Source: a bacterium | GTDB taxonomy: Bacteria; Krumholzibacteriota; Krumholzibacteriia; Krumholzibacteriales; Krumholzibacteriaceae | DNA length: 64,000 nucleotides | Direction: 5' to 3' | Assembly: GCA_020350885.1 (NCBI GenBank) | Contig: CP070727.1 | Location: 1,433,149 to 1,497,148 of the forward strand | Shown here: piece after piece, positions 5,212 to 39,792 of the stretch | How the letters are laid out: the number at the start of each line of letters is the position of its first letter | Numbering within the stretch: the stretch's first letter is position 1 | The notes under the pieces: model-generated | Databases searched by the model: none | What the model saw: the letters and a program-made list of their open reading frames with translations, nothing else | Told to the model about the DNA's origin: nothing | Program-made: the position numbers and the translations under genes

Positions 5212-5249
5212 GCACGGCGGTTGAGGATCGAAACATACTGATTAAGTGA

Positions 5250-5295
5250 CCCCTCGGGAGAAAGCGGAGCCTTCCGCTGATCCCGAGGGGTTTTT
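5250..5295 (+). terminator. Rho-independent terminator after the Ig-like lipoprotein gene
   Basis: Perfect 10-bp stem 5250-5259 / 5281-5290 (CCCCTCGGGA with TCCCGAGGGG) enclosing a second stem 5263-5268 / 5273-5278 (AGCGGA with TCCGCT), then five T at 5291-5295. It works in the plus direction; there is no T run on the opposite side for the converging AsmA-like gene. Confidence 0.88.
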
Positions 5296-16400: not shown

Positions 16401-18513
16401 AATCTGTATACCGGCAGTGATTCCGGCCTGTGACCGTAACGTAGATATATCCGCCGGTCTTGCAGAGGTAATCATCGAAGACCACTTCACCCGTTGGTCC
16501 AGTAAAATCGAAGGCATAATTGTCGCCTTCCTTGTAGAGGCAGACCCGTGCCGAATCATACGGCGATCCATCACTCTGAACCTGGACCGTGATGCTGTTC
16601 GGTCCGAAATCAGCCGTCGCCGGCACCGTCACGGCAAATACCTTCGCCTGCTGCTGAAAGACATTCAACTCGGGATCGCCGAGAAAGTTGTATATGAAAT
16701 GCGTCCATCTATCGACGTTCTCACCGAAGGAAAGGGGTGTAAACGGAAGGCGGGAATTCACGTGAAGCTTGCCGAGCTGGACGATGTCGTGATCGAATAG
16801 CAGTTCGAAGTACTCGTCCATATAGGGCTTCGAGATGCTTGGAAACGCCGAGCGGCTCGACCCTGTAACGGCCATCGCGCCACCCTGATCATTCAAGAGG
16901 AAATGCTCGGCCAGGCAGTCGGTGTCGAAGGCGACATTGGTACAGTTCATGAGGTACATGGTGTAGAGCGCGTCCCCGTTCGAGAGGTTATCCGCATCGT
17001 AATTCAGTATTGTGCCGTTTCCGACAGACATGTTATAGCGTGAGCCGTGTCCGACGTGGACCACGTGGTTCGTTCCGGCACTGAGTGAGTCGAGGGACGC
17101 TTCTTTTGTCAGACAGATCGATCCCGGATAGAGGGCGCATGTCTCGTAGAGACGGGAGGTGACGACATTTATGTTAAATTCGAGGTAGAGCTCGTAGATT
17201 TCCTGTGCGAACTCGGCGCCGTCCATATAGAGGTCGCCACCCGGTATGTAAATTTCCGGGTAGAGCACCTCGGCAAGGAATAGAAACTTTTCCTTCGATG
17301 ACGTGTCAACCGGCGCGGCGTACGATATCGTCTTATTCACCAGGAGCTCCGCCTCACTGTGTGTTGAAACCGTTATCCTCCCTACGTATACCTCGGAATA
17401 CATATCGGTCATATCACCGGGATCCTGTGCTGTATGATACGCCTCACCCCATAGAGAATCGCCGTCGTTGTTCCAGTTACCGTCGAGGCACGAGTAATAC
17501 ATATCCGTTGGAATGAGTTCGCCGCCGTAAAAGTCAACGTAGCAGAATCGTGCAGGGATGATATCGGTGTCACCGCCCAGGACCACCCACTCGACCCCCC
17601 ACTTGGCAAAAGCCTCCTGTATAAAGATCCGGACCGATTCGCCGAGATCGGCACCGCTCCGGTAGTTCTGTCCTATCCATTCGATCGTCCGTACAACCGC
17701 GGGGATTCCCTTCCTTGTCTTCCAATCGGCGAGCGTTTCGAATGCCGGTGCCATATCCTCGTTCGTGACAATGAGATAGGCAACCTCGCTTCCTTCCATG
17801 CTGGGGAAGTAACTGGGCAGGAAACCTGTGTCGTTTCTATCAACGACGATGTCGTTGAATGTATACCGGGCAACCTCATAGGGATTGACGACGATCGATT
17901 CGACGAGCCGGCGGTTCTCGTCCCGGAATCCGTCGACGTGCCGTTTACGTTCGAGATAATCGAGCGGAACCGTCTCCGGCTCGGTTTCTATGAGGAGCTC
18001 GAGCTCGCTGTCGAGCTCCAGCAGACCGGAATCCACATTGTACCGGAACGGGTATACGGCAAATGCAGCGATCCGGTATCCCTTGAGGAAGTGTGATCCC
18101 AGGTGTCTGACACGCCACCGGGGAAATACCGCATCGGGGCCTACGACCTTCGTCCGGTCGATATGCATACCAATCTTTGCACCATCGTCACGATAATCAC
18201 CGTCGAAGCGGGCCAGCTCTACGGAAGCGTCGAGCTCGATCCGCTCGACTATCCGTGCCCTATATGATGAAACCATCTCTCCCTGCGGCAGTAGTACCGC
18301 AACCACACGGTACGGCAAAGAAGGAAGATCCAGGAAGTTCGTGTGCCGGTAGCCTTCTACAGCGACAGCCACACGTTCGCCGCCCCGCTCCTCGAACCGA
18401 ACGAGTGAAGGATCGTGGTCGAGTTGTATCGACAATGTAGTACCCGTGGCGGTGCCGGCCACAAAAGGTAGCAAAGATGCAAATGCTAGAATCAAGGTTA
18501 CCGTCTTACCCAT
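13495..18513 (-). CDS. Secreted gingipain-like (C25) cysteine protease with propeller repeats and sorting-type C-terminus
   Basis: Multidomain extracellular protein of 1,672 residues. Signal peptide (residues 1-24); N-terminal pro-region; C25 peptidase domain about residues 240-650, with the probable catalytic His in HVGHGS (near 489) and Cys in MNCTN (near 522). Ig-like stretches follow; then an fn3-like segment (VVLNSSYGPTEIHVTWHPP, near 955); then about seven FG-GAP/VCBS-type blades between residues 1045 and 1460 with repeated PALADxDGDG-like calcium motifs. The C-terminus has LYQNYPNPFNPVTSIPF and ends SGIYFVHLNVDGHRATRKI, a FlgD-Ig/type IX-sorting-like module. Expected to be surface-attached or secreted and to cut proteins; it could instead process other sorted proteins, as PorU does. 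It converges with the OPT gene. Confidence 0.87.
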   Translation of the reverse strand: MGKTVTLILAFASLLPFVAGTATGTTLSIQLDHDPSLVRFEERGGERVAVAVEGYRHTNFLDLPSLPYRVVAVLLPQGEMVSSYRARIVERIELDASVELARFDGDYRDDGAKIGMHIDRTKVVGPDAVFPRWRVRHLGSHFLKGYRIAAFAVYPFRYNVDSGLLELDSELELLIETEPETVPLDYLERKRHVDGFRDENRRLVESIVVNPYEVARYTFNDIVVDRNDTGFLPSYFPSMEGSEVAYLIVTNEDMAPAFETLADWKTRKGIPAVVRTIEWIGQNYRSGADLGESVRIFIQEAFAKWGVEWVVLGGDTDIIPARFCYVDFYGGELIPTDMYYSCLDGNWNNDGDSLWGEAYHTAQDPGDMTDMYSEVYVGRITVSTHSEAELLVNKTISYAAPVDTSSKEKFLFLAEVLYPEIYIPGGDLYMDGAEFAQEIYELYLEFNINVVTSRLYETCALYPGSICLTKEASLDSLSAGTNHVVHVGHGSRYNMSVGNGTILNYDADNLSNGDALYTMYLMNCTNVAFDTDCLAEHFLLNDQGGAMAVTGSSRSAFPSISKPYMDEYFELLFDHDIVQLGKLHVNSRLPFTPLSFGENVDRWTHFIYNFLGDPELNVFQQQAKVFAVTVPATADFGPNSITVQVQSDGSPYDSARVCLYKEGDNYAFDFTGPTGEVVFDDYLCKTGGYIYVTVTGRNHCRYTDSIQVLAEAGPYLRLEDKALYDDVVGNNDGVLDAGEWVTLFGKLHNTGQGNGEKLYAILRSDDLQVTVTDSTALYPDIPSGGKAWGHDGWRFSIDSGVGDEEAVEFTIEIHDSMGGFWSEPFAYEVHAPELTIYVSTKSDTLPYGNNNGIIEPGEDFLLQIGMRNYGTGAAYGLQGIITTSDIDLTITDSVSVYDEITPLGTGYGDGFVLSEANMTKINYYFFELTDAYGRTFSKQMELRRPGPPTGVVLNSSYGPTEIHVTWHPPDSLEQYRYQLYNATVQGGPYALTNGDPVWYTLFRDYELLTNTVYYYTVTALDSCGNEGLPSTEVSISTNPSQLPGWPNAVDRESSSSPKIADVDGDTYLDIVVGSEYIYAWHADGFELRDGDNRPVTLGIFNEYGDNFQSTVALADLDGVPGAEIIASSWNTSEIYVFNKDGDTLPNWPKNTIDFCWASPVIGDLDDDGDFEIVAYDVDGIVYAWHHDGTEVRDGDSNPATDGVFFLTDFAGSAPWHISTPALADFDGDGVVEILVVSPDTDSPGIQDSIYCLNVDGTNVLGWPVPLEDDNAIISASPAVGDIDDDGYLEMIVQSTAARIYGLNHDGTWMSGWPRWVYSNSTPAGSPALADLTGDGKLEVIVPGMDSYCYIFRYNGQPLQNHNPSYDWPQAYASSGVTESSPTIADIDNDGSFEIILCCESGVMNAWNIFGQAIPGFPIWVYSYMRGTPMVRDLDYDGDLELVGTAWDKNVYVWDLEGERYYGFAPWNGFHANVYNTGWLEFDGVTAVDDITWAYHLIGSMIELAWSVGRQEYSWDLYRQRSADSYELLRKGLSPDGTGRIQYIDRSVEEGLTYRYRLEAAGRPELFIETDHIEVPVATVRLYQNYPNPFNPVTSIPFTVPCRAGEKRNVFLAVYNVAGARVSTLVNTALPGGRHEARWNGVNSLGAPVTSGIYFVHLNVDGHRATRKIVLIR

Positions 18514-18932
18514 GCGTGTATCCTCCTCGGATTGCTATGTTCTCTTGTACTCTGGAAATATTCCGGCATACAGCTGGTAGCTATCGGGCGATACTGTGCA
18601 GCTCCTTCCGGAGATCGAACAAGTGGCACCTTGCAGTACTCAGGCTAACCCAAATAATACCACAAAGATAGCTTCATGTCAAGCAAGGAAGGACAGGAAT
18701 GGTATAACTTATATGTGCAGACATGTATATACAGATTCGATCGGCCATTACGATCACCGTCATGCAGTTACCAAACCGAAGAAAGAACGCTACTATGATG
18801 AAACTTAATCGGATGGAGTTAGTATTACTATATATGGTGGTTATACTGGGAAAACCATACAGAGAATCGAGGAAACACGACAGGATCTGCCCATGAAACA
18901 GCGGCGCCAGGATCAAGAAGTGCTCTAGATGG
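18514..18932. other. Long intergenic region without a protein gene
   Basis: Upstream region of the C25 gene. No convincing open frame was seen on either strand; frames here lack ribosome sites and coding-like composition. It is AT-rich from about 18640 to 18850. It holds a weak promoter-like pair, TTAGTA at 18819-18824 and TATACT at 18842-18847 (17-base spacer), pointing toward the hairpins at 18933-19025. It must also hold the promoter of the C25 gene. Confidence 0.5.
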
Positions 18933-19025
18933 ATTGCAGGCGCGGTTAGCGCGGTGTGTAAGGGCTTGGGTATAGCCGGTCGCCTGCAATTCAGGCTCCC
19001 TTCTTTCTCCAGAAGGGAGCTTTTT
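18933..19025 (+). ncRNA. Candidate structured small RNA ending in its own terminator
   Basis: Two strong hairpins with no reading frame. Hairpin one: ATTGCAGGCG (18933-18942) pairs perfectly with CGCCTGCAAT (18981-18990), and an inner helix CGGTTA / TAGCCG (18943-18948 / 18973-18978, one G-U) extends it. Hairpin two: GCTCCCTTCT (18995-19004) pairs perfectly with AGAAGGGAGC (19011-19020) across a six-base loop and is followed by five T. No plus-strand gene precedes it that would need a terminator, since the upstream gene runs away on the minus strand. If the TTAGTA/TATACT pair at 18819-18847 is its promoter the transcript would be about 170 nt. I could not match it to tmRNA, SRP RNA, RNase P or a known riboswitch; it may be a leader of the next gene. 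Confidence 0.5.
18995..19025 (+). terminator. Rho-independent terminator of the candidate small RNA
   Basis: Perfect 10-bp G/C-rich stem 18995-19004 / 19011-19020, loop TTCTCC, then T5 at 19021-19025. It lies 228 bases before the next plus-strand start. Confidence 0.8.
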
Positions 19026-19253
19026 ACATGAAATGATTTTCCGGTACAAACGCTCAGTGGGTCATTCCGCCAGTATACTGGAACAGCAAACCACGATTTT
19101 CAAATGCATGATGATGCGGAACATCAAAAAAACATACATTATTTATAGCTTTTTATGCTACCATGGGTCCTCGCCGCATACCAACACAAGAGATCTGCCG
19201 AATCCATTCGGTCAATACTTGCGATATGACCATGAACTAAAAAGGAGGAAGCA

Positions 19254-19991
19254 ATGAAGGCACTCGTGATGCTGATTTTCATTCTGTGCATCGCAGTATC
19301 CATTCTTTTCGCGGATACCTGCGTGAGACACCAGGTGCACACGGATGGCTACTACTACGGCGGGCGGGTGAATCCTCCCGTAGACCGCGAGTACGAGGTT
19401 TGGTTCGGTACGGGGAAAATTGCTTACATGCACGAGCGCAGGTCGGTTCTCTTCGACCTGGACAAAAGTATTATGACATTCGTCAATCTTGAGGATTCAA
19501 CCTACGTCGTATCACCGATTCCTTTCGAGTGGACGAAGCTGCTTGTGCCCCAGGATACGGCGCGGGTTCTCATGTACCAGACGGTCGGCGAGATATCGAA
19601 GACCGATGGAAAGAAGAAGGTGCTGGACAGGAAATGCATGGGCTATACGATGTGCACCTGGATCCCGTACGAAGGCGGGCGGGTATACGAAACAGATGCT
19701 ACTGTCTGGGTAACCTCCGATGTTCCTTTCAACCTCGAGTTGTACGAGATGTCGATCGGTCATCGCCTCCAGTTGCAGAACTACAAATCCACATTCATCG
19801 ATGAAATGAACAAGATCAAAGGATATCCCCTCCTCTCGGAGGAAAGCAGGTTTGTCAAGGGATTCAGCGTAAAGTCGTTCGACCGGGTGGTAGAGATTCT
19901 CGAGAAGGATCCGCCAGCCGGCGTTTACGCAATCCCTGCAGGTTTCACCAAAAAGGCGCAGCTCGGTATAGGGGACCTGAGGGGTGGTTAA
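19254..19991 (+). CDS. Secreted protein of unknown function (DUF4412-like)
   Basis: 245-residue exported protein. A signal peptide (residues 1-20, cut likely after LFA) is followed by a mostly beta domain with TGKIAYMHERRSVLFDLDKS and later LDRKCMGYTMCTWIPYEGG; this layout resembles DUF4412-type periplasmic proteins, but the match is tentative. Two Cys in the CMGYTMC segment might form a disulfide. AAGGAGG stands just before the ATG. The Tat-exported aldo/keto reductase gene starts 52 bases downstream on the same strand, so both are probably cotranscribed and act outside the cytoplasm. Confidence 0.75.
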   Translation: MKALVMLIFILCIAVSILFADTCVRHQVHTDGYYYGGRVNPPVDREYEVWFGTGKIAYMHERRSVLFDLDKSIMTFVNLEDSTYVVSPIPFEWTKLLVPQDTARVLMYQTVGEISKTDGKKKVLDRKCMGYTMCTWIPYEGGRVYETDATVWVTSDVPFNLELYEMSIGHRLQLQNYKSTFIDEMNKIKGYPLLSEESRFVKGFSVKSFDRVVEILEKDPPAGVYAIPAGFTKKAQLGIGDLRGG

Positions 19992-20043
19992 GATTTATGT
20001 CCCGCATCCTGTCCGCACAACATTCAATTTCAGGAGGATTGCA

Positions 20044-21267
20044 ATGAAACATAAAGACACGAAGAACAGCAGAAGAGCATTTCTCAAGAAGAGTGTTTCA
20101 GGTCTTGCCGGAATCGCCATCCTTCCATCCGTCATGCAGCGCGACGTAATGGCACAGGAAGAGCAAAAACTAAAAAAGAGGAAAATCATAACGCGTACAC
20201 TCGGAAGGACGGGACTCGAGCTACCGATCGTGAGCCTGGGTGTAGGGAACGTGCAAAATCCGGAGCTGGTCAAGGCGGCACTCGATGCAGGGGTGAAGAT
20301 GCTCGATACGGCCAACAGCTACGGTCGCGGCAGAAACGAGGAGATGATCGGCGAGATCATCAAGGGAAGGCCGCGTGACTCCTTCGTTATTGCTACGAAG
20401 GTAACGGGAGCCGAGGACCGCCGGACCGGCCTCTTCAGAAAGGAAGCTACCTCCGAGATGTTCCGCGAGAAATTCGAAACGAGCCTCGGGAGGCTGGGTC
20501 TCGATTATGTCGACATACTCTATATCCACAGTGTCGTTCGGAAAGAGAGTGTCGTGTACGAACCGTTCCTCTCAGCTATGCTGAAGCTCAAGAAGGAAGG
20601 CAAGGTACGTTTCCTCGGCGTCTCCACGCACGCGAACGAGCCGGAGGTCATACGGGCGGCGGCAGAAAGCAAGGTTCACGACGTCGTGCTCACCGCCTAC
20701 AACTTCCGCCAGCCGCACGTCGCAGAGGTCGAGAAGGCGATGGCCGAAGCTGCAAAGGCGGGGCTGGGCATCGTCGCCATGAAGACACAGGCCGGCGTCT
20801 TCTGGGACCCTGAGCGTCAAAATCAGATCAATATGAAGGCCGCACTCAAGTGGGCTCTCCGAAAGGAGTACGTGCACACATCAATTCCCACCATGGCCAC
20901 CTTCGACCAGCTCGAAGAGGACATGTCGGTCATGGAGGAGCTGGAGCTCACTCCAGTGGACAAAAAAGATCTTCAGCTCGGCGCACGGCTCGGTGTGCCG
21001 GGCCTCTACTGCCGACAGTGCGGCGAGTGTAAGACGCAGTGCCGGGAGGATCTCGATATCCCGATCCTCATGCGGAGCTACATGTACGTCTATGGCTACC
21101 GGAATCTCGCCTCCGCCAAGGAGGCACTCGCCTCGGTCGATCTCCCTACCGCTCCCTGCAACGGCTGCGGAACATGCGCCGTTACATGCTCGATGGGCTT
21201 CGATGTGCGGGCGAAAATCGAAGATATCGCGCGACTCCAACTAGTACCGGACGAGTTCGTCGTCTAG
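20044..21267 (+). CDS. Tat-exported aldo/keto reductase with C-terminal ferredoxin-like cysteines
   Basis: Oxidoreductase of 407 residues. The ATG at 20044 has AGGAGG upstream and starts a twin-arginine leader (SRRAFLKK, then a hydrophobic stretch and MAQ), so it is probably folded with its cofactors and sent across the membrane. The aldo/keto reductase barrel follows: catalytic-type residues lie in ANSYGRGRNE (Asp/Tyr), ATKV (Lys) and LYIHSV (His). The C-terminus has CRQCGECKTQC and CNGCGTCAVTCSMGFDV, enough Cys for a 4Fe-4S cluster and one more site. This combination is known in a subfamily of bacterial aldo/keto reductases. Substrate unknown. Confidence 0.9.
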   Translation: MKHKDTKNSRRAFLKKSVSGLAGIAILPSVMQRDVMAQEEQKLKKRKIITRTLGRTGLELPIVSLGVGNVQNPELVKAALDAGVKMLDTANSYGRGRNEEMIGEIIKGRPRDSFVIATKVTGAEDRRTGLFRKEATSEMFREKFETSLGRLGLDYVDILYIHSVVRKESVVYEPFLSAMLKLKKEGKVRFLGVSTHANEPEVIRAAAESKVHDVVLTAYNFRQPHVAEVEKAMAEAAKAGLGIVAMKTQAGVFWDPERQNQINMKAALKWALRKEYVHTSIPTMATFDQLEEDMSVMEELELTPVDKKDLQLGARLGVPGLYCRQCGECKTQCREDLDIPILMRSYMYVYGYRNLASAKEALASVDLPTAPCNGCGTCAVTCSMGFDVRAKIEDIARLQLVPDEFVV

Positions 21268-38943: not shown

Positions 38944-39792
38944 CTATAGTCTAAAATGAAATAGCACGCCGACCTCGGGTGCATAATCAGTCGCCTTCGA
39001 TGTAACACCGAATGCATTGTTGATTCTGACAAATGCATTCGGAATGATATGGAATTGCAGATCGGTGATCAACTCGATCTCATCCTGCGATCCCTCTACA
39101 CCGACATAAAACCGGAACCATCTCGATAAGCGTTTCAGATATTCGACTGCATATTCACCCAATTCCATCTTATTCTCTTCGGCGGTATATTCAACAGCCA
39201 GGCGCAGGGTCCATGTTCCCCACGAAAAACCCTTGGTTACACCCGAACCCAATTTCAATTCCCAATCCTTCGTACCTATCAGCAATTTTTCCTTTTGAAA
39301 CGGGAAAACCGTCTCGAAGTAGCTGAATATCTCGGGACGGCCCGTGGTTTCCTGTGACCAGCGCCACCGGATCTGGGATTCCACATCCCCCAGGCCGGAT
39401 TCCTCTATTACTTCCGGCATATCTGTCGGATCATCCTTTGATCTATATTGTTTTGCAGTTATGACCGCAGCTTCGAATTCAACAGCCACTCTTTCCGTTA
39501 TTCCGTATCCCAAAAATATCAAACCCTCATGGGCTCTGTAACGGCCCCGAAAGTCTTCGTCCAGGCCATACCCGAATTCAATCGGGGCGTACTCTGCATC
39601 CTGATCGTAGTAATATTCATAATAGGGATAGATTATAAATTCTCCCTTTTCGATGTATGTGCCGAACATCGACAAAGGAACTCCCCGTCCCCTGTCTTTC
39701 AGATAGTAGGGAAGGTCATCTTGAGCGAATGCGAAGGATATACTCAAAAGAAGTATCCCTGTGGAAACCACGATGTAAAGCAGCCTCTTCAT
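38944..39792 (-). CDS. Predicted outer-membrane protein of unknown function
   Basis: 282 residues with a signal peptide ending FAFAQ. The sequence is Tyr/Glu-rich with amphipathic strands (FIIYPYYEYYYDQ, YRAHEGLIFLGYGITERVAVEFEA, TWTLRLAVEYTA) and ends VGVLFHFRL with a terminal hydrophobic residue, the pattern of a beta-barrel porin or transporter-like protein. Strong GAGGAGGAGG ribosome site. It converges with the propeller gene; between them is the AT-rich inverted repeat ATATATTAA/TTAATATAT (38924-38943), too tight to be a clear terminator. Confidence 0.68.
   Translation of the reverse strand: MKRLLYIVVSTGILLLSISFAFAQDDLPYYLKDRGRGVPLSMFGTYIEKGEFIIYPYYEYYYDQDAEYAPIEFGYGLDEDFRGRYRAHEGLIFLGYGITERVAVEFEAAVITAKQYRSKDDPTDMPEVIEESGLGDVESQIRWRWSQETTGRPEIFSYFETVFPFQKEKLLIGTKDWELKLGSGVTKGFSWGTWTLRLAVEYTAEENKMELGEYAVEYLKRLSRWFRFYVGVEGSQDEIELITDLQFHIIPNAFVRINNAFGVTSKATDYAPEVGVLFHFRL

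Follow-up and report, generated by a model that had tools for sequence, protein, structure and literature searches.

A putative self-terminated small RNA gene in a 740-base intergenic gap of a Krumholzibacteriaceae genome

The DNA analysed here, a stretch of 64,000 nucleotides that we call the window throughout, belongs to a 4.13-Mb genome of the Krumholzibacteriaceae, and the locus of interest is the gap of 740 bases at positions 18514-19253. On its upstream side lies a minus-strand gene that begins at 18513 and encodes a protein of 1672 aa that carries a C25 peptidase domain and FG-GAP repeats. A strong sigma-70-like site (TTGACA-17-TATTAT, 18682-18654 on the minus strand, 11/12, with TG ahead of the second hexamer) is present inside the gap, and its placement fits a promoter of this peptidase gene. 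On the downstream side a plus-strand gene pair occupies 19254-21267. Its first member, which starts at 19254, encodes a protein of 245 aa, apparently with a signal peptide (judged by eye), and its second an aldo-keto reductase with a 4Fe-4S (ferredoxin-type) domain. The label "DUF4412-like", which had been given to the 245-aa protein in the original prediction, found no support in Pfam, where the protein had no match at E <= 0.001.

The gap contains two adjacent stem-loop structures on the plus strand, a long hairpin (hairpin 1) and an intrinsic terminator, and the features discussed in this paper are listed in Table 1. The perfect part of hairpin 1 comprises 10 Watson-Crick pairs (18933-18942/18981-18990, loop of 38 bases), upon which an inner helix of 6 pairs is built (18943-18948/18973-18978). 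Four bases separate this perfect stem from that of the terminator, which is likewise perfect over 10 bp, counts 11 pairs when the G-U pair 18994/19021 is included, and is followed by TTTTT at 19021-19025. Both structures, as well as the gap and its opposite-strand upstream neighbour, had been described beforehand, and the description proved exact. The G+C content is 0.60 over the hairpins (two 80-base windows) versus 0.34-0.53 in the remaining windows of the gap. The interval from the start of the C25 gene to the terminator contains no recognised plus-strand gene, and none of the five ORFs of the gap, as candidates for a hidden protein gene, scored above the Pfam cut-off; neither tRNA nor tmRNA was detected in the window. 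The terminator thus has no recognised upstream gene to serve, which agrees with the earlier statement that nothing else needs it.

Table 1. Plus-strand features of the gap and their positions in the window
Feature	Positions	Strand	Details	Basis
Promoter-like pair	18819-18847	+	TTAGTA-17-TATACT; 8/12, not above chance	
Putative 5' part of the RNA	18854-18929	+	mostly weakly structured, if the RNA starts at about 18854	inference
SEC-C-zinc-motif-like stretch	18888-18926	+	CP*NSGARIKKCS, internal stop; other frame than the 11-codon ORF; not in Pfam	
11-codon ORF	18893-18928	+	MKQRRQDQEVL; AGGA at 18882-18885, 7 bases before ATG	
Hairpin 1	18930-18993	+	13-pair outer stem, 2-base bulge, 6-pair inner helix, weak pairs, apical loop	stem search, folding
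Intrinsic terminator	18994-19025	+	stem 18995-19004/19011-19020, loop TTCTCC (6 bases), T5	stem search, folding

Hairpin 1 and the adjoining terminator are real structures that exceed chance expectation. The 106-nt stretch around them folds with a minimum free energy of -52.2 kcal/mol, compared with a mean of -33.2 for its shuffles (z -5.77), and none of 200 shuffles was as stable, while over the entire 212-nt interval the effect is smaller (z -2.73, 1 of 200 shuffles). When the window was shuffled 400 times with its dinucleotide composition preserved, 3 of the 400 shuffled windows contained a plus-strand terminator whose stem was perfect over 10 bp, and none contained two such stems within 15 bases of each other. 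Taken singly, perfect stems of at least 10 bp are less exceptional: the window holds 8, the shuffles hold 3.0 on average, and 4 of the 400 shuffles reach that count of 8. A looser terminator scan of the gap returned 3 sites, where 0.4 were expected, and two of these are parts of the hairpin-terminator structure.

Since these stems stand above chance in both z score and shuffles, a plus-strand transcript probably ends at about 19025. A terminator with no recognised plus-strand gene to end leads most simply to a transcript that begins within the gap, and for the same reason a short, self-terminated RNA accounts best for the anatomy. We therefore give slightly better than an even chance to an intergenic small RNA gene, that is, an autonomous short non-coding transcript of the plus strand that would end at about 19025. 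Sequence and folding show the terminator and the hairpin; transcription, the 5' end and any target we infer. The original prediction had pointed to the promoter-like pair of Table 1, which scores 8/12, is one of seven plus-strand pairs at that score in the two stretches scanned, and does not rise above chance; no plus-strand hexamer pair within 18500-19260 reaches the 9/12 cut of the scan, which covered this promoter type and no other. With the start site unsupported, the length of about 170 nt is a guess, and the lack of an above-chance plus-strand promoter counts against the small RNA reading. It favours in turn an explanation in which the RNA itself is without function and the terminator, with the hairpin ahead of it, acts as a barrier to stray transcription. 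Strong divergent promoters often fire both ways, and the promoter-like site at 18682-18654 lies nearby; the element also shows no conservation by BLASTN or by covariance model, as would suit a mere barrier. This explanation leaves the second stable hairpin unaccounted for, even though two such adjacent stems arose in 0 of 400 shuffles, and we regard it as improbable.

The search for relatives of the element covered its own genome and a broad set of others. The region 18700-19060 has one full copy in the genome, and the other 6 rows span 17-24 bases, by which a repeat element was rejected. BLASTN with the same region was carried out against 98 genomes, including its own; 19 of the 97 others belong to the same family. 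No convincing match was obtained in these 97 genomes, the own copy standing alone: some match at E <= 1 occurred in 59 of the 98 genomes, 6 others had one below 0.05, the best with 37.4 bits, and six of the seven best non-self matches overlap stop-to-stop frames of at least 150 codons, the exception being L011. A covariance search among relatives, which the original prediction had proposed as a check, was run with a model of both hairpins (R1). With one sequence as its only source this model is blunt, so that distant homologs may be missed; in its own genome it matches the element alone, and in the 79 other genomes of the class (the phylum-level set consists of the same 80 genomes) it found nothing credible. 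Three marginal matches were returned from these 79 (E 0.018, 0.07 and 0.275 per genome), fewer than chance alone allows at the cut of E 0.5 per genome. One of them (L025) covers the end of a surface-protein gene together with its terminator, another (L026) is a terminator after an aminotransferase gene, both genes being named by eye from their ORFs, and the third (L027) is G+C-rich sequence inside long frames. The viral contigs searched with a 22-base core also contained none. No convincing homolog was found by BLASTN in 97 other genomes or by covariance model in 79, which lends selection on the structure no support and counts against the small RNA reading. The element is best read as lineage-restricted.

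The terminator lies on the same strand as the downstream gene pair, 228 bases ahead of the start codon at 19254, and a 5' leader for the operon of 19254-21267 has to be weighed on that account; most RNA would stop at 19025, and a signal would permit read-through. The signal could be translation of the 11-codon ORF, which is preceded by AGGA and ends one base ahead of hairpin 1, its stop codon running into an ATG (TAGATG). This ORF is possibly a leader peptide and possibly a chance occurrence. The leader ORFs of typical attenuators contain a run of one codon, and this one has no such run. The 19254 protein occurs in 7 of the 20 genomes of the family, its own included, with 34-39% identity in the six others, and the reductase gene is found beside the homologue of the 19254 protein at L016-L021; the pair is also present in two MAGs, one of Eisenbacteria (L029, with 66% identity in the reductase) and one of Aminicenantes (L028, 60%). 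A first scan of contigs with the 19254 protein returned no relative; a second, with the reductase, returned 8 loci, and identities of 47-66% were seen in 4. Eight upstream gaps were folded, with their ends set by eye from ORF lists, a set that leaves aside L030 and L031 as well as L022 and L023, two weaker second matches to the 19254 protein. Stems of 8-10 pairs, G-U allowed, are present in these gaps, and the adjacent two-hairpin arrangement with a T run is absent from all eight despite the conserved gene pair; in these loci, therefore, the operon occurs without the element. Model R1 applied to 13 loci matched only 3, namely those that had been fetched as marginal chance matches. When the pairs of the terminator were forbidden, the rest of the fold remained unchanged and no replacement helix or antiterminator appeared, a test that does not extend to a fold dependent on a ligand or protein. 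The relatives without the element, together with the lack of a competing antiterminator fold, weaken the riboswitch-like leader that had been offered as the alternative to a small RNA, and we consider an operon leader of any such type unlikely.

The stretch of the 11-codon ORF also drew attention in the BLASTN results, in which 28 of the 93 non-self rows fall wholly within query positions 184-226 (18883-18925 of the window), 12% of the query. Among the best matches of that search (E 0.008 per genome) is L009, a SEC-C zinc motif that agrees with the SEC-C-like stretch of Table 1 in 30 of 39 bases. If this stretch were the decayed remnant of a C-terminal SEC-C zinc motif, as found in SecA and other proteins, the lone terminator would have belonged to a protein gene since lost. 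The L009 core gives the site a score of 46 and the next best of the window 30, a difference tempered by the fact that this core was picked because it already matched; with the SecA motif of the genome itself, the site ranks 4th of 127,886 window positions (31 versus 43 for the best). A stop lies within the motif and a serine stands at its last ligand position. No Pfam family, the SEC-C motif (PF02810) included, matched 18819-18950 when TGA was translated as X, and Pfam and NCBIfam together gave no match in the stretch read through the stop; the SEC-C model finds one place only in the genome, a 1037-aa frame elsewhere, which is taken as SecA. When the 28 crowded matches were read in three frames, two proved to be SEC-C motifs (L009 and L045), and the remaining 26 amount to short words in common, in varied frames and with no such motif. 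The crowding is accordingly taken as common words of coding DNA, the SEC-C-like stretch is probably a coincidence, and a lost protein gene appears very improbable to us.

Returning to the small RNA reading, membership of a described class was examined with Rfam release 15, and no match at the gathering score was found in the window, which bears out the original prediction that no known RNA class is recognisable. At E <= 10 nothing credible was found in the gap. The match with most bits there is Yfr10 (RF02362), which resembles the element in having two hairpins, the second of them terminator-like; the element is nevertheless not a member, its 21.7 bits (E 1.3) falling short of the gathering score, 43. 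The 6S RNA of the genome (RF00013), its one match at E <= 10, lies elsewhere (C1:925017-925200, 90.9 bits), as do the match above cut-off to the bacterial small SRP RNA (RF00169; C1:753895-753994, 78.9 bits) and a second one below it; the 6S match and the first SRP match both clear their cut-offs by a wide margin. Thus the self-terminated anatomy and the lack of a known class, both claimed beforehand for a small RNA, have stood, the proposed promoter has not, and the riboswitch-like alternative has lost ground.

The genome, which is 91.7% complete, gave no match at E <= 0.001 to Hfq (PF17209) or CsrA (PF02599), and presents the combination of detected 6S and SRP RNAs with undetected Hfq and CsrA. 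With neither protein found, an Hfq-dependent small RNA or a CsrA sponge is an unlikely mode of action. An Hfq-independent small RNA is compatible with this finding, because Bacteroides thetaiotaomicron, a bacterium reported to have no obvious Hfq or ProQ, possesses intergenic small RNAs (PMC7366714). That study gives 27 of 49 high-confidence, terminator-bearing intergenic sRNAs as strain-specific, so that missing conservation weighs little against a small RNA, and states that 9 of 11 tested candidates were confirmed by Northern blot, 8 of them with a start and a terminator (PMC7366714). The intrinsic terminator is shared with that high-confidence set, and the B. thetaiotaomicron sRNA GibS is likewise intergenic, Hfq-free and of similar size (145 nt, against the guessed 170 nt or so here); as described there, GibS differs in being conserved, with a mapped start and known targets (PMC7366714). 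The hairpins are also richer in G+C than the Bacteroides intergenic sRNAs, about 35% on average in that account, which counts against a small RNA (PMC7366714). In Streptomyces, arrays detected 20 of the 32 sRNAs that had been predicted, and RT-PCR confirmed 9 of the 20; conservation, a requirement of those predictions, is lacking in the present case (PMC2422843).

As a working model, the plus-strand RNA would start within the gap and stop near 19025 at the intrinsic terminator. Its 3' half would be shielded by hairpin 1, and a target would likely be contacted, through base pairing without Hfq, by the 5' part of about 75 nt, which is less structured. Duplex prediction between the 5' part and 47 crudely defined gene starts gave no clear favourite, the neighbours included: the C25 gene ranked 5th, the reductase 10th when its start was set at GTG (the pairing is weaker for ATG) and the 19254 gene lower. 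If transcribed, the element would add a candidate small RNA to a genome in which neither Hfq nor CsrA was detected, and would at the same time be one more RNA of a common, ordinary kind, which leaves the general picture unchanged. That it might be the first member of a lineage-specific regulatory RNA, perhaps acting doubly through the 11-codon peptide and the two-hairpin RNA in such a host, is a long shot. Elsewhere in the window, further perfect stems of 11 bp occur at 5249-5291 and 39008-39042, the former of which is followed by TTTT and is terminator-like.
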